A stretch of DNA of 64,000 bases from Crocinitomicaceae bacterium. GTDB taxonomy: Bacteria; Bacteroidota; Bacteroidia; Flavobacteriales_D; Crocinitomicaceae. Positions 1-9,950 of the stretch are shown one piece after another (position 1 is the stretch's first letter; each line of letters starts with the position of its first letter). The translations under genes were made by a program, and so were the position numbers. Location: assembly GCA_030833845.1 (NCBI GenBank), contig JAURGK010000005.1:1-64000 (forward strand), written 5' to 3'. Under the pieces are notes generated by a model. That model was given only the letters and a program-made list of their open reading frames with translations, was not told the origin of the DNA and did no database searches.

Positions 1-208
1 AGAAGCAATAGAAGTGGAAGGTATTACCATCAAAAACGGCGCATTTACTTATAGCATCTTGGAATGCTTAAAGCAAAATGAAGGCAAAGAACTCAAAGTG
101 AATGCTTTAAAACAATACGCAGAGAAACGCGTAGAGGAAATTACTGGCGGCAAACAAAAACCCACCTCCCGCCAAGAAACCATGGAGATTGATTGGGGGG
201 TGAATTAA
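1..208 (+). CDS. 3' end of a caspase-like (peptidase C14) protein, partial
   Basis: Only about the last 68 codons are inside the window; the frame is open to the left edge (first full codon at position 2), so the start is missing. Seen: a GAFTYSILECL segment, a helix rich in K and E, and a TGGKQKPTSR tail. Known: this is how the small-subunit half of caspase-like domains ends in Bacteroidota proteins that join a WD40-type propeller to a C14 domain. The next gene starts 19 nt downstream on the same strand and carries a full caspase-like domain, so the two are probably tandem paralogues in one transcript. The catalytic His and Cys would lie outside the window, so activity cannot be judged. Confidence 0.6.
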   Translation, partial: EAIEVEGITIKNGAFTYSILECLKQNEGKELKVNALKQYAEKRVEEITGGKQKPTSRQETMEIDWGVN

Positions 209-227
209 GGGCCGTAACTTACAACAA

Positions 228-3200
228 ATGAAACAACTTATATTCGCCATAATCATTTTATTCTCCTTTGGAGATATTTTCGCTCAAACTGAGCCACGCC
301 TGGTGGTGCCCGTAGGCCATACAAATCATTACAATGTAAATAAGCATCCATCATCGGATCCAAATTTTTTATTTACAACCGAAACCATCACCATCACTGG
401 AGCTAATCCTAAATCTATACTGCTAGTTTGGGATACTTGGTCCAAAAAAGAAGTATTTCGTATAGAAATTAATGGCAAAGATCAATTTGATCATTTGATT
501 TTTGAAGACCCCTCAACTCATACCTTACTTTTTGATGCAAAAGATGTTTTTATTCGGGTAAACTTCGAACACGATACTTTCGATACCCTTTCGAAACTTC
601 ATCACGGACATTTACACCATATTGACAATACTCCGTTATTTCTTATTGGCAATAAGGATTCTGTTGCTTTTTATGATTTGAATAAATTTCAATTTGTTGC
701 TGAATATCCCATAAATATATGGAATTTGGTAAAGTGGAGTACCAATGCAAATCAGTCTGGGTCATTTGACAACACAAGTGTTTTTCTTTTAAAATCAGAC
801 AAAGAATCGAGTCAAATTTTTGTTTATAACCCCAATCAAGTTGTACAATTGAGGCAAATAGAATTTGACTTTGGTGTCAAGAAGGTTTTTCTTATCAATG
901 AGCATAAAATTATTTTAGAAAAGGAGGAAGTCCAATCAGGTAGTGTGCCTAGATCTTTTTACCCTTATGATTTAAAATTTAATACTTTTCAAACGGCAAT
1001 CCCCTGTCATCAATATGCGATTAATGGGTTTGAACATCATTCAGATGGCGGGTTTATATCCTTTGGCAATGATAAACGTCTGCTTTTATGGGACAGCACT
1101 TTATCAATCACGAAGGAAATCAATGTTTTTAAAAGTTATCACCTTCCTTCTTTTACAAAGCTCGTTGATACTGAAGATGAACTTCTCTTTGAAGCGAGAA
1201 TAAAAAAAAATAAACCGAATCAATCGATTGATTCGCTAATACTGAAAGGAATTATTGAAAAACAAACTTTTCTGCTTACACATATCGATACAACTATTTG
1301 CGCACTTGATACTGTTGACTACAATCAAAACGAACTCGAGCAAGAATTGCAATATATCTACGGACTTGATAAGCCCTATGAATATTTGTCAAATAAAAAT
1401 AATCGTATTCAGCTTAGATCTGAAATTGATTCAAATTATTCTGAAATTTTAACTATAACAAGTGATTTTAAATTTAAAATTTCAAATATCAGGACTGATT
1501 CATTAAAGGAAAGTTATAATCTAATAGAATCATTCAATTCGAGTCAGTTTAATGAATTAAACGAAGCAAGCCAATTTGATTTTTTTGCAGAGTGCAAATC
1601 CTTGAGCACAGAATTCATAGATCCAGATTTTATTGATGATCTACAGGCTTCTTACTTTAAAGAAAAGAAGACCAATCTTAAAAACTGGGATGAGAATTGG
1701 CAGCTGAATTCCACATGTATTAGGCAAGATAGTACAAAGTTTGTGTTATATGATTCGCTTTTTTACCGTGGCAAACTGATACTTAATGATTCAACTTTTG
1801 ACCGGGATACGATTTATCAGCCTTCATCATTAGTGCCATTAGATAAATACATGTGTTTGATCAGGAAATTGAATGACGATACGCTTCAATTTACCTTATT
1901 AAAGAGTGGAAAAATACTAGATCAAGTAACTTTATTAGGTTTAGGAAGAATACCTTTTGATTCTAATAAACTCCTATTTACTTCAGCCTATGATATTCCA
2001 TGGGGGGAATACAATACAACATTTTCTGACTTTCCAATTCATGATTTAGAATCTTATTTTATATACTATCCTGGCCGGAGAATTCATTACCAAAATTACC
2101 GTGACGAAAAACAATCCTACGATGTCGAAATGAAAATCAAAGAACTCGTTGTATTGAATTCAAAGCTCAAGTTAGTAAGTGTTGATTCATTATTTAAAAC
2201 GGATTACCTCGAAAAGAAAACCGATAAATTCTTATTTAATACAACCAATGACCATCTTTTTTATGATTATAAAAATGTAAAAATGTGGTACAGCCCTGGG
2301 CTAAATTTTCATAAAATTGAGATGCAAAGAGAAAATCAACTTATTAAATTTTACATCTCAAAAACATCAAGTTATTTCAATTCATTGGACTGGATTTATT
2401 GGCAAACAACGTATAATAATTTACTATCGGCACATTTATTAAAATCGATTTCTCAAAATAACGAGCACAATGAATTTTATATTGATCAAGAACAAAAGGC
2501 AATCTTTCAAATATCCAATCAGAAATATGTTGGGAATAATATTGAAATCAACCCAAAGGAGGTGTTTCTTGGATGTTTTTTAGCCAAGAATTTACTTGTC
2601 GTATTGGACGAAGAAACAAATTTTTATCATGTTCGGGATTTCAATAATCAAGAGTTATTTTCATTTATTTTACTCGAAGATGGTCAGTATTTGTTCTTTG
2701 ACAAAGATTACCATTTTGATGGCCACCCCGCGGCAATTTCTCAATTGTATCTGACGTGCGGTTTAGAAGTGGTGGAACTCTCTCAAATCAAGGACGCCAT
2801 GTATGTACCAAATCTGGTGCAGCGCATCTTGAATGGTGAAGATTTGAATCACCTGCCTAAATTAAGCGATATTTCTATATGCGGGATTACCCCAAAGGTG
2901 GTGCCAATAAAGAATAAAAATGGGAAAGCAAGTTTTAAAATCACGCCACAAACTGGTGGAATAGGCGAGATTGAAATTCAAATTAATGGTGTATTGCGTG
3001 AAATAAAAAATCCTGCTGAATTAAAATTCCATCAGGGTTCATACCTACTGGAGGTTGATCCAAATTTAATTGAATCATTTAAAATTAATGGACAGTCAGC
3101 TCATATCAATGTTGTTGCCAAAACGAAAAATAATTTATTAGCCTCAAGAGGCGCAACTATTGAAGTAATTGATGAAGTGAGCAGCTACTTAAAGCCGTCG

Positions 3201-4358
3201 TTATATGCGCTCATGATTGGAATAGATAGTTATAAAGATCCGAGCCTAACACTTAATTACGCTGCAAAAGATGCCAACGACCTTCAGCAAGTATTGCAAT
3301 CATCGGCAATCCAATATTTCAATATTGATGATACAAACAGAGTATTCTTTTACAACCTTACAATAGATAAAAATAAGAATATTGGTACCACACAACTCAA
3401 AGGCGTAACTCCTGACAAAGGAAATATCATTAAAACTTTGGAATATATTTCGATGACGAGTAAGCCCGAGGATATCATTCTGCTCTTCTTTGCTGGCCAT
3501 GGAGAAATAATTGATAACAATCAATTACTATTGCTAACCGCTGAGGCAACCAAGGAGCAGCCAATAGGTATTAGGATGAAAGATTTATTGGACTATATGA
3601 ATAAAATTCCGGCTGGAAAACGTGTTCTAATTTTAGATGCTTGTCATTCAGGAGCTGCGATTAACGACCTAGATATGGCGATGTTTGCCGGGACGAGAGA
3701 TATTTCGGAGGCGGAGCGAGAATCCCGTAGATTAAAAGAACTTGATAAGTTGGCAAGTAAATCAGGATTTTCAATTTTAACCGCCTCTTCATCAAAGCAA
3801 AAAGCAATGGAATTACCTCAATATGAACATGGGCTCTTGACCTATTCGTTATTGAGTGCCATTGTGAATAATCCATATTCACTTAGTAATGATCGCGTTC
3901 TAGTTCTTGATAAATGGTTTATTGCAGCAGAAGAGGAAATGCAAAAAATCAGTTCTATTCAGAATGCTGAAAAATTTATTCCGGTTAGTTTTAATTTAGG
4001 GGTGGTAAATGATGAGGTGAAACAATATGTGCATATTGCTAAAACGCCAAGTATTTTCATTGAAAATGTGCTCAATATCAACGAGGTAACTGATGATTTA
4101 TTCATTAAAAATCAATTAATAAACATTTTTCAATCAAAAGAAAAAAAGTTAAAAAACTCATTTCTATATGTTGACTTAGCAGATGCTCTTAGGGTAAATA
4201 TTATTTATGAGCATACTGATTCTAAACTAAAATGCACAGTCAATCTACGGAATGGCCTAGATCTTAAAACATTTACTTATGAGAGCGAAATTCAAAAAAT
4301 CGATGAATTGCTTCAGATTATTTCCGACGATGTTATTAGGTCATTATTAATCAAGTAG
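228..4358 (+). CDS. secreted propeller-caspase (peptidase C14) protein
   Basis: A 1376-residue exported protein. Seen: a signal peptide over residues 1-20 ending in FAQ; a long beta-rich region (about 25-810) with one blade resembling a WD repeat near 275-292 (FGNDKRLLLWD); a linker (about 815-980) with the GxYLFFDKDYHFDG and LVQRILNGEDL motifs that commonly join propellers to caspase domains; and a caspase-like domain from about 990 (ALMIGIDSY). The His of FFAGHGE is about residue 1091 and the Cys of LDACHSG about 1139, so the His/Cys pair is intact. After about 1277 there is an extra C-terminal alpha/beta region that I do not recognise. No T9SS tail is visible. It follows the partial caspase-like gene by 19 nt and precedes two tandem secreted paralogues. 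The substrate is unknown. Confidence 0.8.
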   Translation: MKQLIFAIIILFSFGDIFAQTEPRLVVPVGHTNHYNVNKHPSSDPNFLFTTETITITGANPKSILLVWDTWSKKEVFRIEINGKDQFDHLIFEDPSTHTLLFDAKDVFIRVNFEHDTFDTLSKLHHGHLHHIDNTPLFLIGNKDSVAFYDLNKFQFVAEYPINIWNLVKWSTNANQSGSFDNTSVFLLKSDKESSQIFVYNPNQVVQLRQIEFDFGVKKVFLINEHKIILEKEEVQSGSVPRSFYPYDLKFNTFQTAIPCHQYAINGFEHHSDGGFISFGNDKRLLLWDSTLSITKEINVFKSYHLPSFTKLVDTEDELLFEARIKKNKPNQSIDSLILKGIIEKQTFLLTHIDTTICALDTVDYNQNELEQELQYIYGLDKPYEYLSNKNNRIQLRSEIDSNYSEILTITSDFKFKISNIRTDSLKESYNLIESFNSSQFNELNEASQFDFFAECKSLSTEFIDPDFIDDLQASYFKEKKTNLKNWDENWQLNSTCIRQDSTKFVLYDSLFYRGKLILNDSTFDRDTIYQPSSLVPLDKYMCLIRKLNDDTLQFTLLKSGKILDQVTLLGLGRIPFDSNKLLFTSAYDIPWGEYNTTFSDFPIHDLESYFIYYPGRRIHYQNYRDEKQSYDVEMKIKELVVLNSKLKLVSVDSLFKTDYLEKKTDKFLFNTTNDHLFYDYKNVKMWYSPGLNFHKIEMQRENQLIKFYISKTSSYFNSLDWIYWQTTYNNLLSAHLLKSISQNNEHNEFYIDQEQKAIFQISNQKYVGNNIEINPKEVFLGCFLAKNLLVVLDEETNFYHVRDFNNQELFSFILLEDGQYLFFDKDYHFDGHPAAISQLYLTCGLEVVELSQIKDAMYVPNLVQRILNGEDLNHLPKLSDISICGITPKVVPIKNKNGKASFKITPQTGGIGEIEIQINGVLREIKNPAELKFHQGSYLLEVDPNLIESFKINGQSAHINVVAKTKNNLLASRGATIEVIDEVSSYLKPSLYALMIGIDSYKDPSLTLNYAAKDANDLQQVLQSSAIQYFNIDDTNRVFFYNLTIDKNKNIGTTQLKGVTPDKGNIIKTLEYISMTSKPEDIILLFFAGHGEIIDNNQLLLLTAEATKEQPIGIRMKDLLDYMNKIPAGKRVLILDACHSGAAINDLDMAMFAGTRDISEAERESRRLKELDKLASKSGFSILTASSSKQKAMELPQYEHGLLTYSLLSAIVNNPYSLSNDRVLVLDKWFIAAEEEMQKISSIQNAEKFIPVSFNLGVVNDEVKQYVHIAKTPSIFIENVLNINEVTDDLFIKNQLINIFQSKEKKLKNSFLYVDLADALRVNIIYEHTDSKLKCTVNLRNGLDLKTFTYESEIQKIDELLQIISDDVIRSLLIK

Positions 4359-4407
4359 TTGTAATTATTAATCGAATGCCTTATATTTAAACAATATACT
4401 TACTCAA

Positions 4408-5826
4408 ATGAAATCTTTAGTTACTTTTTTCATCCTTTTCCAATTAAACTATATATGGTCTCAAAATCATTATTTGATTGAATATGATCGAATTTTAAAT
4501 TCAGAGAAATATTATAAACTTTCATACAACCATGGCACCTTTGAGCCTAGTGAGATAAAGAAGCCTATTATTAAAAAAGGTGACGTCATCAAATTTAGGC
4601 TTGTCAATGTCAATCCACTTGTCTTTCAGGTAAATATCCGAGATCCATTTGAACATGGACTAATAAGCCCGGGTGCGAAAACCTTATCAGGATTTGGAGG
4701 TATTCTTGAAAATCTGAACGGTGTGAATTATGAATTAGGTTCTCAATTAAGTGCTCTTGACTATTCTAAGCCTGATGCACCTGTATTTAGCCGGGGCGAA
4801 ACGCCATCTGAAGAATTGCAATTGCGAAACGAGGCCTTGCTTAAGTTAAATGAGTTCAATCAAGTATTGAAAGAATCTTTAGAAATGGCAAAGCAATATA
4901 CGACTACTTCTAATTTATTAAGTTCTACGTCACTAACAAAAGATGAAATTATTAGTGCATTAGATTCTATTGGGCAGCGAACTAATTATAAGGTGTATCA
5001 AGAAAATAGGACTTATCTGGATAAGGAAATTTTAAATATCCAACAAAATCCTTCATTGATTAATTCTGATTACCAGCTTATTGAGCGTTCTTATGAATTT
5101 TTAAAAAACGAATTGGATGCATCGGTACAGAGCCCGTTGCATTTTAATGACTTGCGAGAGCAATTGGCTGCCTCAGAATTCACAAAGGAATATGCTACAG
5201 TATTAGGATACAATTCGTCACCGTGGGCAAACGAAAAGTTTGATTTTTCTAGTGATTTGAGCTCTGTTGAATATAGTTTAGAATTTGTTGATATTGACGC
5301 TCAAATTTCTTCTGAAGATGAAGGTTACCAGGATGGGCTCTTACAAAGCCATACCATTGAATTGGCAGTTCAAACTCCTGGTGGTTTCAGTTGGTCTACC
5401 GGATTTGTTAATTTGATGGTTTCGAAAGGGTTCAATAATTATGAATTAAGAGAAATCAGTTTTGGAGACTCTGTACAAATTACTCAAAATGGTGCTGTCG
5501 TCAAATCAAGATTGGCACTCGCCACCAATCTAAATTATAATTTTTCATCGGCCAAAAATATCATTCCTCAATTAAATATGGGTATGGCCATCGGATTTGT
5601 TGGTGATGAAAATCCACTTAATATTTTGCTTGGTGGGGGGCTTAAATTTCGTCAATTTCCATTCTTAGGCTTAAGTGCTGGCCTTGCCTTTTGCCAAAAT
5701 CAGGTTTTAAATAATGGATATCATTTATATGATAACCTTGAAAATTCTAACACCCTGCTCTTCGATCAAGTTGTTCAGAGGGTTTATTCACCAGGGTATT
5801 ATTTTGGTATTAACATTACATTATAA
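4408..5826 (+). CDS. secreted protein with barrel-like C-terminus, first tandem paralogue
   Basis: I do not recognise a named family. Seen: a signal peptide over residues 1-19; an N-terminal domain with a YLIEYDR strand and a GDVIKFRLVNVNP motif (NVNP at 67-70); a helical middle rich in E, L and Q; and a last third with alternating hydrophobic strands and glycines (GLKFRQFPFLGLSAGLAF), ending FGINITL. The end looks like an outer-membrane beta-barrel, but it is short for a full barrel. The next gene has the same plan and matching motifs, so the pair arose by duplication. It lies 49 nt after the caspase-like gene and 8 nt before its paralogue, which suggests one operon. Function is unknown; an outer-membrane partner for the caspase-like protein is only a guess. 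Confidence 0.7.
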   Translation: MKSLVTFFILFQLNYIWSQNHYLIEYDRILNSEKYYKLSYNHGTFEPSEIKKPIIKKGDVIKFRLVNVNPLVFQVNIRDPFEHGLISPGAKTLSGFGGILENLNGVNYELGSQLSALDYSKPDAPVFSRGETPSEELQLRNEALLKLNEFNQVLKESLEMAKQYTTTSNLLSSTSLTKDEIISALDSIGQRTNYKVYQENRTYLDKEILNIQQNPSLINSDYQLIERSYEFLKNELDASVQSPLHFNDLREQLAASEFTKEYATVLGYNSSPWANEKFDFSSDLSSVEYSLEFVDIDAQISSEDEGYQDGLLQSHTIELAVQTPGGFSWSTGFVNLMVSKGFNNYELREISFGDSVQITQNGAVVKSRLALATNLNYNFSSAKNIIPQLNMGMAIGFVGDENPLNILLGGGLKFRQFPFLGLSAGLAFCQNQVLNNGYHLYDNLENSNTLLFDQVVQRVYSPGYYFGINITL

Positions 5827-5834
5827 TTGCGATT

Positions 5835-7262
5835 ATGAAAAAGTTTATATTATTCTCAATATTTTGTTGCTGTTCAATTTCAATTCTGTTCAGTCAGGTA
5901 AATTACCGGATTTCATATGATAAACTCTCTGATGAAGTAAGTTTCTACAAACAAAATTGGTTGAACGGGGACTTGGAAGAGGAGTCTGTCAAATCCATAC
6001 ATTTGAAGCAAAATGATATTGTCGTGTATGAGGTAGTAAACGTTAACCCATTTATTTTTTCTACTGAAATTTACATGAGTAAAACAGAGTTAACTGATCA
6101 AAACGCTTCGCCCATTGCCACCATTCTAAGCGGCTTTTCTGGTTTTGGAGGGCCTGCCCTACGATTGTTGACATCGATGGCATCTCGGCCACCAGAGCCA
6201 GTGTTTTCTTCAAGAGGTGAGCTAGATCTACAACAAGAGCAAAGACAAGAATTGGGAGCATCAATTAATACCGTATACAACGTAATGACTGAAATTTTGG
6301 ATAGTTATCGTACTTATGATCAAATGGTACAGGTTAAATTCAGCAAGAGTCTTACACAGGAGCAAATTTTAGAAAGACTTGATAGTTTGAATGAATATGC
6401 TGACTTTTCTCAAATTCAGAACAAATACGAACAGATGATTTCTGAGCTTGATAAAATAGAAATGCTACGAGATTCGATAACATTTCAAGAAGATGATGTT
6501 TTATTTGCAGATTATGAATTTATTATCGAGAAAGTTGAATCTTTTCAAGAAGCTTATATCGATGAGGATGGTAATATACTTACCGTTGATTTGAGTAATG
6601 ATATTTTTGATGTTCAAATTGAAGATTTCGCCTTGTCTCATACTTTTAAAGCCATAACAGAAAGTCGTTATGAGAAATATTCAAGCAATGAATTTTTTGT
6701 TGTTTTTAGTGAAATCAAAGGAGATGATCCAGAACTTTACCCTGTCGATTTCATTAAAAAAATAAGCATTCCAGTTGCACAACCAAAAGCGCCATATTGG
6801 GTATTAACCGTTCAAAATTTCACTCCCATCGGTGGGATGAATAGTTATAATATTCAGGTGGTTTATGAGGATTGGTTTTCTGGAGATTCATTGCTTGTCA
6901 ATCAAACAAAGCAATCAGGCGGTATGTTAACCTTTGGCACAATGTTGAGTTATGATTTTTTAAGTGAAAAACCTATCATGCCTTCTATGTTATTTGGGGC
7001 AGGAATTTCAGGGGTCAATAAAAACAAAGATCAATGGGCTTTGAGTTTGGCATTAGGTGCTGGCCTAAGTTTTCAAAAATTCCCTTATCTTTCTCTAAAT
7101 GGGGGTATTGGCCTTACACAAGATAAGGTTTTGAAGAGCGAATATTATTTGAACCGCGCATTTGCAGCACCTGAAGGTGCAAGCGAATATAATGGTTACG
7201 CTGACCTCTTTACAACAAAGTTTAGTCCTAGTGTCTTTTTTGGTGTAGGTATTCGTTTATAA
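5835..7262 (+). CDS. secreted protein with barrel-like C-terminus, second tandem paralogue
   Basis: This 475-residue protein has the same plan as the gene just upstream. Seen: a signal peptide over residues 1-20 (rich in F, C and S), an N-terminal VNYRISYDK strand, a NDIVVYEVVNVNP motif (NVNP at 69-72), a helical middle, and a C-terminal third with glycine-rich strands (LSLALGAGLSFQKFPYLSL) ending FFGVGIRL. The two proteins share order, spacing and end motifs but are clearly diverged, so the duplication is not recent. Only 8 nt separate the two genes. The downstream neighbour is convergent (PrsW), its stop only 3 nt away, so the operon ends here. No catalytic motif is visible. Confidence 0.7.
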   Translation: MKKFILFSIFCCCSISILFSQVNYRISYDKLSDEVSFYKQNWLNGDLEEESVKSIHLKQNDIVVYEVVNVNPFIFSTEIYMSKTELTDQNASPIATILSGFSGFGGPALRLLTSMASRPPEPVFSSRGELDLQQEQRQELGASINTVYNVMTEILDSYRTYDQMVQVKFSKSLTQEQILERLDSLNEYADFSQIQNKYEQMISELDKIEMLRDSITFQEDDVLFADYEFIIEKVESFQEAYIDEDGNILTVDLSNDIFDVQIEDFALSHTFKAITESRYEKYSSNEFFVVFSEIKGDDPELYPVDFIKKISIPVAQPKAPYWVLTVQNFTPIGGMNSYNIQVVYEDWFSGDSLLVNQTKQSGGMLTFGTMLSYDFLSEKPIMPSMLFGAGISGVNKNKDQWALSLALGAGLSFQKFPYLSLNGGIGLTQDKVLKSEYYLNRAFAAPEGASEYNGYADLFTTKFSPSVFFGVGIRL

Positions 7263-7265
7263 TTT

Positions 7266-7952
7266 TCAAATGATTTTATTCTTAAATGGAGAAGCATCAC
7301 GATGTATTTTGATTGCCTTGAAGGAAAAATAAATAGATAATCCAAAAACTATCAACCAATAAAGAATATACGCGTCATTTTTTTGAGCATTGAGTGCAAA
7401 AAAATCGTAGAGACCATGGGAGATTGCAGTGAGTGTTATTCCAATGATGCCGTAGATCTTTGAACCATGTAGTTTTTGCAAACCAAGAAAAAAACCAATC
7501 CAAACACCATCAGCGGCATGTCCGGGAACGGCGGTAAACATGCGTGCGATAGCCACGCTTGTTCCACCTTCGGCAACATAAAATATATTCTCAAGGGTGG
7601 CAAAGCCCATAGCAACCATAACCGAATAGGTAATACCATCAAAAGGCTCATTAAATGCATCCTTCTTATAGGCATAGTATCGAACAAAAATATACTTTGA
7701 AAATTCTTCCGAAAGTCCGGTGCCAATAATCATACTTAGTAATGCCCACCAGACAACTGGGCTCACCGGATTAAAGCCAAATGCTTCCCCAATTAAACTT
7801 AATATAACTGCAGGGATTGTAGAAAGCATTCCTAAAAAAAAGCTCTTAACAAGTAGCGCTTTGGGCTCTTTGTCAAATTTATCTTGCCAATAGATGTAAA
7901 TACAAATTGCAAGTCCAGGTGCGCAAGTAAGCAGCAGTAGAGAAAGATTCAT
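7266..7952 (-). CDS. PrsW-family intramembrane protease
   Basis: A 228-residue polytopic membrane protein of the PrsW type, glutamic intramembrane proteases related to the CAAX/APH-1 group. Seen: several hydrophobic segments and all the expected motifs: EEFSK (Glu82-Glu83), GFATLEN (Glu121), PGHAADG (His145) and a second SHGLYDF (His179). Known: PrsW of Bacillus subtilis cuts the anti-sigma factor RsiW at site 1, but most Bacteroidota members have no tested substrate. No anti-sigma gene is visible next to it, so the substrate is open. It is transcribed away from the SHOCT-like gene and towards the caspase/paralogue operon. Confidence 0.88.
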   Translation of the reverse strand: MNLSLLLLTCAPGLAICIYIYWQDKFDKEPKALLVKSFFLGMLSTIPAVILSLIGEAFGFNPVSPVVWWALLSMIIGTGLSEEFSKYIFVRYYAYKKDAFNEPFDGITYSVMVAMGFATLENIFYVAEGGTSVAIARMFTAVPGHAADGVWIGFFLGLQKLHGSKIYGIIGITLTAISHGLYDFFALNAQKNDAYILYWLIVFGLSIYFSFKAIKIHRDASPFKNKII

Positions 7953-7990
7953 ACGACTTAATTTTTACGAATTAATATTATTTATTTATT

Positions 7991-8021
7991 TAGATTCAAC
8001 AAGTTACAAACTTTGAATCTA
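7991..8021. repeat. inverted repeat between divergent genes, possible operator
   Basis: A 9-bp arm TAGATTCAA (7991-7999) is matched by TTGAATCTA (8013-8021) across a 13-nt spacer. It sits in the 126-nt AT-rich gap between the divergent prsW-like gene and the SHOCT-like gene, where an operator would be expected. It is too weak to be a terminator, and no clear TAnnTTTG box was found for either gene here. Confidence 0.3.
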
Positions 8022-8078
8022 TTATTTTGATGAATTAAATTTATTAATTAATTTTCTACAATATAATCTACAAATAAA

Positions 8079-9041
8079 ATGAACAACGAACGAAAGGAAG
8101 AATTAAAAAAAATGCTTGATTTAGGCGTTCTTTCTCAACAGGAATACGATAAGCTATCCAATGAATCCAAAACATCGAGTCCAAAACGCAAAAAGCTCTT
8201 TGTCCCGCTGTTGATTTTTATGCTCATTTCGCTAGGTGCCGGAGCATATTATTTTTTTTCTAAACCCAGTGTCGAAAGTTTGGCGATTGAATTTTCCAAG
8301 GAATATGTGCGTTATCAGTTAGAAAATAATACGGCCTACCTTAATAAGCTCTACGACGTGCAAGAGAAAATGAATAGTGGTGGTTATAAGTTTGCCTCGA
8401 GTATTGATTCAGAATTGAACGTACTCAATTTGCAGTATGTTGGCAATAGTTTGGACCCAACTATTGAAGCATCTTATGCGGACTTTGAAAGATCATTGCA
8501 AGATGCAGAATTGGAGTGGCCCAAGACAGACTCAGATGGAAAAAAATTCTGGTTTACTTATGAAGTTGCAATAAATAACGATACAGAATTAAAACAAACC
8601 ATGGATAAGATCAACAACCTTATCAAAGAAATTCAAGCTCAAAAAGAAAATATACAATTGACCTCTGCAGAAGACCTTGAAGTATTGAAAGAGAAGTCTT
8701 ATGGGCTCATGCGCACTATTTTCTCCAATTGGACAAATGAAACATTTGATCCCTTCATGTATTTTGCGCCCAGTGTGGAACGATTTTTTTCATACCAACA
8801 CCTTTCACCTGATCAAGTAATCAACACCGTGAATGAAACAGTAGAATTTTCCGTTACAAACTTTACACCAAATTTTGCATCTTTCGAACTCAAAGAAAAA
8901 AATAAAGAACATGAAATATGGGAGTATCAAGTTGAGGTGATCTATTATGATTATTATAGGGATACTTCAAAAAAAGTAAGAAAAAAACACAGGTTAATTC
9001 TTAACAATTCGGATAAAGTAATGGCTATTTATGATATTTAG
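8079..9041 (+). CDS. SHOCT-like domain membrane protein, function unknown
   Basis: A 320-residue protein. Seen: the first ~30 residues read ELKKMLDLGVLSQQEYDKL, the pattern of a SHOCT (short C-terminal) domain, here N-terminal; then a basic stretch, one transmembrane segment at about 43-62, and a hydrophilic domain of about 250 residues. With positive residues before the membrane segment, the large domain probably lies in the periplasm. Known: SHOCT segments are oligomerisation modules found beside membrane domains. No enzyme motif is visible. The gene stands alone between divergent prsW and the terminator at 9079-9110. Confidence 0.6.
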   Translation: MNNERKEELKKMLDLGVLSQQEYDKLSNESKTSSPKRKKLFVPLLIFMLISLGAGAYYFFSKPSVESLAIEFSKEYVRYQLENNTAYLNKLYDVQEKMNSGGYKFASSIDSELNVLNLQYVGNSLDPTIEASYADFERSLQDAELEWPKTDSDGKKFWFTYEVAINNDTELKQTMDKINNLIKEIQAQKENIQLTSAEDLEVLKEKSYGLMRTIFSNWTNETFDPFMYFAPSVERFFSYQHLSPDQVINTVNETVEFSVTNFTPNFASFELKEKNKEHEIWEYQVEVIYYDYYRDTSKKVRKKHRLILNNSDKVMAIYDI

Positions 9042-9078
9042 GCTTGATATGAATGTATAACCTACTGTAGTAGAAATA

Positions 9079-9110
9079 AAAAAAGGGATTTCATTTGAAA
9101 TCCCTTTTTT
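9079..9110 (+). terminator. rho-independent terminator after the SHOCT-like gene
   Basis: The perfect 8-bp stem GGGATTTC/GAAATCCC (9085-9092 with 9097-9104) closes an ATTT loop, is extended by A-T pairs, and ends in six T. The A run on the other side makes it usable from both strands. Confidence 0.85.
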
Positions 9111-9287
9111 GGTGGGCGAAAGGTCCGAAATATAGAACAAACTTCGTGAAGATATTGAGCGTATTGCGAATTCAACTTTGAATGTTAAATTGGAAGTATT
9201 GAAATTAAGATTTTGCTTCATATTATACTCGTTTTTTTGTTTTTGAAATCTTGATAACTTAGTAAATAGAAATTTTAAAAAAATGTT

Positions 9288-9950
9288 ATGAAAAATTTTG
9301 GTTTATTAGCCATATTAATCGGTTTTTCGTTCTGCCTTGAAGCACAAACAGTAAAAATTGGCACTCAAGTTTGGATGACGAAGAACCTCGATAAAATTGA
9401 ATTTAATAATGGAGATTTTCTTATTGAAGCTAAGAATAAAATGCAGTGGTTAAATGCAATTAAAAATCAAAAACCTGCATATTGTTATTTTAATTTTGAT
9501 CCAAAAAACGGAGATAAATTTGGATTAATTTATAATTGGTATGCAGTAATTGACCCCAGAGGAATAGCGCCAATAGGATTCCATGTACCTTCAAAAAATG
9601 AGTGGTCTGAATTGAAAGAATTTACAAATACGGGAGTTGAACAGTCTTTTAAGCCATTGAAATCGAGATTTGGCTGGAAAATGGGACAAAATGGGAATAA
9701 TCAATTTGGTTTTAATGCAAAACCAGTTGGATTTTTAGGCGGAGGCAATAATTTTTTTATCGATAAAGAAGAAACCTTCTGGTGGACATATGATGGAACG
9801 TATGATTCAAATAATTATCAAATATTCTTCATTGACTCACAACCTCATGTTGTAAGATTCACTGAAAAAGAAAACATGTTTTTAGATAATCAATTTTTAT
9901 ATAAATCCAATGTGGATTTCGGTATTTCGATTAGATGTATTAAAGATTGA
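9288..9950 (+). CDS. secreted FISUMP-domain protein
   Basis: A 220-residue protein with a signal peptide (about 1-19, ending EAQ) followed by one FISUMP domain (Fibrobacter succinogenes major paralogous domain). Seen: the signature order IGTQVWMTKNL, YNWYAV, IGFHVPSKNEW, a WWTYDGTYD segment in place of the usual WSST, and the closing GISIRCIKD. Known: these domains occur in large paralogous families of surface or secreted proteins in Fibrobacter and Bacteroidota; the biochemical role is not settled. There is no lipobox Cys at the signal peptide end. The gene is monocistronic and the tRNA lies convergent to it. Confidence 0.8.
   Translation: MKNFGLLAILIGFSFCLEAQTVKIGTQVWMTKNLDKIEFNNGDFLIEAKNKMQWLNAIKNQKPAYCYFNFDPKNGDKFGLIYNWYAVIDPRGIAPIGFHVPSKNEWSELKEFTNTGVEQSFKPLKSRFGWKMGQNGNNQFGFNAKPVGFLGGGNNFFIDKEETFWWTYDGTYDSNNYQIFFIDSQPHVVRFTEKENMFLDNQFLYKSNVDFGISIRCIKD

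Follow-up and report, generated by a model that had tools for sequence, protein, structure and literature searches.

The window analysed here, the first 64 kb of contig C34 (100,088 bp) in the 2.14-Mb draft genome G000 of an aquatic Crocinitomicaceae bacterium, opens in a compact cluster around caspase-like (C14) peptidases. It holds the C-terminal end of one caspase-like gene, a complete second one, two paralogous genes that we call BARa and BARb, and a gene for a PrsW-family intramembrane protease. Comparison with related genomes revealed an element that had no place in the original prediction for this DNA, namely a near-constant exported protease behind exchangeable fronts. Gene tables were made with a simple open reading frame (ORF) caller and local profiles, signal peptides were assigned by eye for all proteins, and papers are cited from the portions of their text that were available.

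The complete caspase gene (228-4358) is an intact ORF of 1376 aa. Pfam Peptidase_C14 matched residues 993-1216 (E 1.4e-14, 54.8 bits against a curated cut-off of 21.4), and His1091 and Cys1139 were invariant in all five aligned sequences (H305 and C353 of the translated window 2586-4355). The predicted structure, a modest model with an overall predicted local distance difference test score (pLDDT) of 55.7, matched metacaspase-4 (Z 17.6), MALT1 (Z 16.5) and also caspase-7 over residues 201-485 of the piece folded; the sheet domain ahead of the caspase domain appears immunoglobulin-like in this model. By every sequence and fold test run the protein is a C14 peptidase; proteolytic activity is predicted, with Arg/Lys at P1 as its plausible specificity, as would be expected for metacaspases of the DACHSG type. 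The putative signal peptide reads MKQLIFAIIILFSFGDIFA, with Gln directly past the likely cut (the Q-rule, PMC5837995), and signal peptides of similar look were seen in 22 other module proteins compared. The NCBIfam scan found no type IX C-terminal sorting domain at E 0.1 in the caspase or the BARs, so type IX secretion cargo was rejected, and no lipobox is visible in the caspase. The caspase is thus predicted to be likely located outside the cytoplasm and, since neither of these features was found, likelier in the periplasm than in the medium. Membership among the EACC1-associated caspases (NF047832) was also rejected, at 78.1 bits against an NCBIfam cut-off of 140. No NACHT or NB-ARC NTPase was found in the caspase protein, where Pfam gave only C14 and a weak WD40 match at E up to 1, and without such a match it was not classed as an NLR/STAND receptor. 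A search for close plasmid-borne copies returned 37 records, all below 60% identity, the top-ranked one being 28% identical over 96% of the query.

Upstream of this gene, frame 2 of positions 1-208 encodes 68 aa before a stop, the C-terminal end of a second caspase-like protein. It matches a locally built C14 profile (E 1.9e-14) and, by blastn, caspase ends in G023 (96%), G007 (87%), G009 (84%), G418 (83%), G029 (about 80%) and G410 (69-72%). The rest of the gene is not assembled because the window opens at base 1 of the contig, and only 19 bp separate the fragment from the complete gene. The two represent different subtypes: the fragment belongs to type 2, which has DACNSG at the active Cys in relatives and in G418 is seen up to a contig edge (L086:16586-19387), and the complete protein to type 1 (DACHSG). 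G012 and G023 carry type-1-like genes that make up a further branch; in the caspase half these have 56% identity between them and 32-34% with the window. As a separate observation, a shortened C1 gene in G410:C53 (L089 4130-4503) is followed at once by a 97-bp stretch of type-2 caspase end, 81% identical to window 107-203, which looks as if left by recombination. The original prediction of two adjacent caspase-like genes, the complete one with an intact His/Cys pair, a signal peptide and a likely action outside the cytoplasm, was therefore borne out. Degeneration of the active site in a structure model had been named as a refutation; the dyad is intact in the alignment, and the model has a caspase-like fold.

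The constant protease is best seen in G029, which carries three type-1 genes in series on one contig (L041) with intact frames and a fourth, truncated copy that runs off one end of a 4.3-kb contig (L043); at the opposite end of L043 lies the C-terminal part of either this copy or another. Among these four copies and the one of G009, the constant region (from window residue 825 on) is 91-98% identical in amino acids in all ten pairs, with nonsynonymous divergence (dN) of 0.01-0.04 and synonymous divergence (dS) of 0.44-0.71, the four pairs that involve the cut copy resting on 278 codons. The fronts of the same copies are 28-37% identical in nine of the ten pairs, close to the 25-31% obtained by forced alignment of other, plainly diverged fronts. 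In type-1 pairs with unrelated fronts the change-over is about 10-30 codons wide. As baseline for the species split we used one gene, an RND transporter, which is only 76% identical between G009 and G029 and has saturated synonymous sites (proportion of synonymous differences, pS, 0.80); therefore exchange or conversion of the constant half is probably the more recent event, and this half looks much younger than the split of the two species. The type-2 genes have a similar step: six of six proteins from four genomes agree in every one of the 44 residues that open the constant region and have one residue in common before this block, and their fronts differ, except in one pair discussed below.

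Constant regions of the caspases often coincide with contig ends (window position 1, G007, G009, G023, G029, G033, G410 and G418), as multi-copy repeats would give, and true copy numbers may thus exceed those assembled. The step was not seen in other families of the order: WD-C14 paralogues within G038, G045 and G046 are about 22-43% identical, and several of these alignments continue into the front without a step. This comparison took 12 of 18 WD-C14 places, four per genome, in stretches of 773-999 aa that include the fronts in part. It seems therefore that the layout may be special to the present group.

The sister species G023, whose transporter is 92% identical to that of G000 (pS 0.76), has a contig (L049) that opens in the same type-2 caspase end as the window. 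Window 63-322 and L049 1-260 are 93% identical in DNA through the type-2 end, the 19-bp gap and the signal peptide to 'EPRL'; past this block, the comparison of window 1-9200 with 5.0 kb of G023 gave no more than three matches, of 18-26 bp each. Behind the shared block the G023 gene has another propeller, its caspase has no more than 32% identity to that of the window, and profile searches gave no BAR match in this genome. The G023 propeller contains 6.2 copies of a 126-bp unit at 92%. The six WD40 repeats have a mean identity of 85%, and five of the 42 columns (16, 18, 39, 40 and 42) contain three or more residues. In these five columns the proportion of nonsynonymous differences (pN) is 0.49 against pS 0.15, and in the remaining columns pN is 0.025 against pS 0.097; these figures leave out a degenerate seventh repeat, and the contrast is descriptive because the columns were chosen for varying. 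A 126-bp unit was also found in the TPR-CHAT gene of G418, with 11.1 copies at 80%.

Nine other caspase fronts were scanned with propeller models. Clear matches (E <1e-7) were obtained for five, one had a weak match besides MORN repeats, one matched at E 0.0075 and two gave no match at all. For the window front, searches for relatives returned only weak or short pieces; we regard it as probably a diverged beta-propeller. The MORN repeats (Pfam) lie in the type-2 front of G029:C45 (L044 9372-12211), and the second type-2 front of that pair (L050 15952-18674) has a MORN-like look by eye. The features of the locus are collected in Table 1.

Table 1. Features of the caspase cluster at the start of the window
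Feature	Position	Strand	Basis
End of type-2 caspase, C-terminal 68 aa	1..208	+	frame 2 open to stop; blastn
260-bp block common with G023 at 93% nucleotide identity	63..322	+	blastn of window 1-9200 against L049, 5023 bp
Complete type-1 caspase-like protein, 1376 aa	228..4358	+	ORF, Pfam, alignment, model
Signal peptide, 19 aa, Gln next	228..284	+	by eye; Q-rule, PMC5837995
Variable front, probably diverged beta-propeller	285..2699	+	profile and pairwise comparisons
Constant region, aa 825 to ~1254: sheet domain, then caspase domain	2700..3989	+	
Caspase (C14) domain, aa 993-1242 by local profile (Pfam 993-1216)	3204..3953	+	
Codon CAT, catalytic His1091	3498..3500	+	alignment
Codon TGT, catalytic Cys1139 (DACHSG)	3642..3644	+	alignment
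BARa: signal peptide, small beta domain, helical region, C-terminal strands like outer-membrane barrel (low confidence)	4408..5826	+	
BARb: BARa paralogue, layout alike by alignment	5835..7262	+	
PrsW-family intramembrane protease, adjoins BARb	7266..7952	-	

BARa lies 49 bp past the caspase gene and BARb 8 bp past BARa; the two proteins, both with signal peptides, are 26% identical. Three profile searches in overlapping, partly sampled sets of genomes (399 from the order, 240 from the family and 395 from the phylum) gave strong BAR relatives (E <1e-30) in nine genomes. In all nine a cysteine-peptidase gene is an immediate neighbour of a BAR, and in all nine a C14 or CHAT gene stands within two genes of one. 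The neighbour is a C14 protein with an N-terminal domain in G007, G418, G012, G243, G410 and G409, a TPR-CHAT protein in G029, the propeller-caspase in G000 and a papain-type C1 peptidase in G159 and also in G409. As six of the nine genomes have just 2 to 9 C14 and CHAT matches each, we estimate the chance of a random adjacency at about 1% or less per genome. In a tree that also contains incomplete rows and one long row of odd composition, BARa of the window falls with the first BAR of a tandem pair in G409, a member of another genus, and BARb with the second (support 100/99 each), and hence the order of the pair is old. The original prediction had taken the exported caspase and the two secreted paralogues directly behind it for a system rather than a lone enzyme, to be checked by conservation of the neighbours in related genomes; both the paralogues and the conservation were confirmed. 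More widely, cysteine peptidases with export signals (N-terminal C14, TPR-CHAT and papain-type C1) cluster with the caspases and the BAR pair. One scan of a collection showed BAR-bearing relatives in five Flavobacteriales metagenome-assembled genome records, of which two carry the label Crocinitomicaceae and one the label Lishizhenia. Weaker, partial BAR-like matches (E 1.7e-10 to 9e-4) occurred in 13 genomes. Two of them, G396 and G377, have both C14 and C1 genes in the cluster; in G226 a C1 gene stands at a distance of two genes; the other 10 gave no C14, CHAT, C1 or PrsW match in the stretch fetched.

In a Foldseek search with the BAR model the top 14 matches were all outer-membrane barrels (best E 1.5e-3), comprising OmpA-, AlkL-, NspA- and Ail-types, FadL and a Legionella porin; we take 12 of the 14 to be of the 8-stranded kind. 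Against PDB sequences the BARs gave E 0.08 or worse, mostly to coiled coils. If the barrel is right, the front of the BAR proteins would, by analogy to OmpA-type topology, face the periplasm and could meet the caspase there. Neither Pfam nor PADLOC gave any match for BARa or BARb, to gasdermin or otherwise, and a gasdermin-protease system was not assigned for this reason.

PrsW is a looser associate of the caspase cluster. Six PrsW matches were found in 5 of the 14 genomes searched, and four of the six sit in a caspase or CHAT cluster (two in G000, one each in G009 and G410). In the window PrsW stands at a distance of three genes from the caspase. G009 has a homologue (67% identical) directly beside its caspase, G000 has a paralogue directly beside its second caspase locus, and the PrsW gene of G410 is one gene from a TPR-CHAT gene. 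The PrsW gene of G007 has no C14, CHAT, C1 or BAR match within the 12 kb around it, and in G418 some 200 kb separate PrsW from the peptidase cluster.

Some further loci were recorded along the way. The second peptidase cluster of G000 (L055 7135-12645, i.e. C25 43134-48644) contains in order the PrsW paralogue, an N-terminal-C14 protein, a papain-type C1 peptidase with DUF1036 and, truncated at the edge of the contig, a protein similar to the front of TPR-CHAT proteins. In G159 (L077 1053-7893) and G287 (L084 712-7709), which belong to different families, BAR or BAR-like genes lie near an Hsp70-like cassette that looks the same by eye, with proteins beginning MRNKIDYGIDLGTTNSAIA and others. 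A C1-type peptidase, a patatin-like protein and a distant BAR-like protein stand in a row in G226:C4 (L078 7245-11033), followed by genes that by eye look like restriction-modification genes. G002:C10 (L052 6921-8285) has a short caspase without obvious signal peptide, with equal-length matches in G035 and G341, adjoining a small protein beginning MSKTHNLFISHSWNYSD that by eye is TIR-like. Window 9288-9950 encodes a protein with a Fib_succ_major domain (Pfam E 1.6e-34), for which no tie to the caspase cluster was seen.

We suggest, tentatively and with a probability of about 0.42, that these genes form an envelope-located recognition-and-proteolysis system in which constant protease effectors would be coupled to exchangeable sensors. 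The front might bind a foreign or altered-self ligand in the periplasm, binding would activate the caspase, and the activated caspase would cut one or more envelope targets; the BAR proteins may hold the protease at the outer membrane or serve as its substrate. Recombination between the conserved caspase and signal-peptide blocks could swap fronts and so give strain-specific sensor sets.

Several observations weigh against this interpretation. One G029 pair (A3-B1) has related fronts at 61%, with dN/dS of 0.28/0.83 for the front against 0.03/0.44 for the constant region, and the type-2 genes of G029:C45 and G007:C35 have the whole front in common (82% over 893 aa). Between the constant region of the window and those of G029, G009 and G033 identity is 58-62% (six of six pairs) and synonymous sites are saturated, so that the window has the layout in common with them but shows no recent exchange. 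In G410 a more distant type-2 copy (L132) is without the identical 44-residue block, and in G009 a stop interrupts a type-2 copy (C105). The distribution is patchy: of 86 genus genomes, 7 have strong type-1-like matches (E <1e-14) and 18 have matches at E 0.001; one of the seven is partial and two are only about one third identical to the window. Nearly all genomes are drafts, often with caspase genes at contig ends. When the seventh repeat of the G023 propeller is included, the number of qualifying columns rises to nine and the contrast is weaker, at 0.47/0.28 against 0.12/0.22, and in the TPR repeats of G418 (seven compared) pN of 0.12 is below pS of 0.42, hence no sign of hypervariable positions there. 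The propeller front of the original prediction is weak in the window itself, where the front has a single WD40 repeat below the cut-off (E 0.1) and no tandem repeats were found. The BAR model has a pLDDT of 46.7, with the C-terminal strands partly its most confident portion.

The exchange of fronts would be an artefact if chimeric contigs had fused different fronts to a repeated caspase, as draft genomes and the many copies that stop at contig ends might indicate. We consider this very improbable, given the three copies in series with intact frames on one contig, the constant regions, in which about 3-18% of bases per 60-codon block are different, and a type-2 junction that recurs together with its front in two independent genomes. 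Aquatic Flavobacteriales degrade polymers, and the cluster could be a BAR-anchored protein-degradation locus of nutritional or housekeeping extracytoplasmic proteases, the propellers docking substrates. The side-by-side C14, C1 and CHAT peptidases with export signals fit this idea, which we nevertheless hold to be unlikely: enzymes of the C14 and CHAT families usually act as specific, regulatory proteases, the Pfam matches of the cluster genes scanned (part of the neighbours) included no family for transport or peptide uptake, and variation confined to few repeat columns, in G023 only, fits recognition better.

In Bacillus, PrsW works in a proteolytic relay that releases a regulator, and a relay of caspase and PrsW that frees a regulator in envelope stress or developmental signalling would agree with the position of PrsW beside caspases in G009 and at the second G000 locus, beside BARb at the end of the window cluster and near TPR-CHAT in G410. 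With no PrsW match in 9 of the 14 genomes searched, several of them incomplete, with the G007 and G418 genes away from any such cluster, and with front swapping unexplained by signalling alone, this relay too appears improbable. The export signal and the variable, targeting-like fronts could also belong to a secreted weapon, the propellers aiming caspases at neighbouring cells or prey; the type IX sorting domain not found in the caspase speaks against this, as does the fact that no delivery or immunity gene was recognised beside it, where no search was aimed at such genes, and we would give it little credence. Equally speculative is a stronger form of the recognition system, an inflammasome-like periplasmic immunity in which exported caspases with recombining propeller receptors would sense a foreign molecule and cut BAR, whose outer-membrane barrels would then open or be released, so that the infected cell is killed or the invader destroyed at the envelope; we think it a poor bet at present.

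Caspase/CHAT-gasdermin defence places a clan-CD protease beside a membrane protein. The present cluster has a clan-CD protease beside a possible membrane protein as well, but here BAR resembles an outer-membrane barrel and has no gasdermin match. With caspase conflict systems of the ternary, EACC1 and DGR-diversified (diversity-generating retroelement) kinds (PMC7159879, PMC8195603, PMC10907252) it has in common caspase or CHAT effectors and diversified sensors. In the portions of these papers that were available, bacterial caspases of conflict systems are largely tied to NTPases or adapters; the systems are built round NTPases, adapters or reverse transcriptases, and some are membrane-associated or have secreted parts. 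No such NTPase, adapter or reverse transcriptase partner was matched among six window genes scanned with Pfam. Fungal NACHT-WD receptors of the HET-D/E/R type form a gene family in which WD repeats of high internal identity and hypervariable positions are coupled to other domains (PMC4986451), a likeness found in G023 and not in the window; those receptors are intracellular with a NACHT domain, whereas the present proteins have an export signal, a caspase and no NTPase match.

Near relatives are also the bacterial WD40-caspases (metacaspase/orthocaspase, PF00656), which have WD40, the caspase domain and the His/Cys dyad (PMC3501461). By the available text of that paper, WD40 is the commonest added domain of prokaryotic metacaspases (73 of 671), localisation information was lacking for 529 of the 671, and operons with multiple metacaspases in Bacteroidetes were reported in 2012. 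The exported layout of a constant protease with a swapped front is not described in the available portions of PMC3501461, PMC7159879, PMC8195603, PMC4986451 and PMC10907252, nor was a description found in the wider literature searched, as far as its text was available, with few subscription papers or preprints covered. The caspase, BARa, BARb and PrsW offer a testable set for the role of exported Bacteroidota caspases, and our suggestion, if true, would extend the principle of variable receptor and constant effector to the bacterial envelope. WD40-caspases and tandem caspases were known already; what sets the present genes apart from them are the export signals, the BAR pair and the new layout, an exported near-constant protease behind an exchangeable front.

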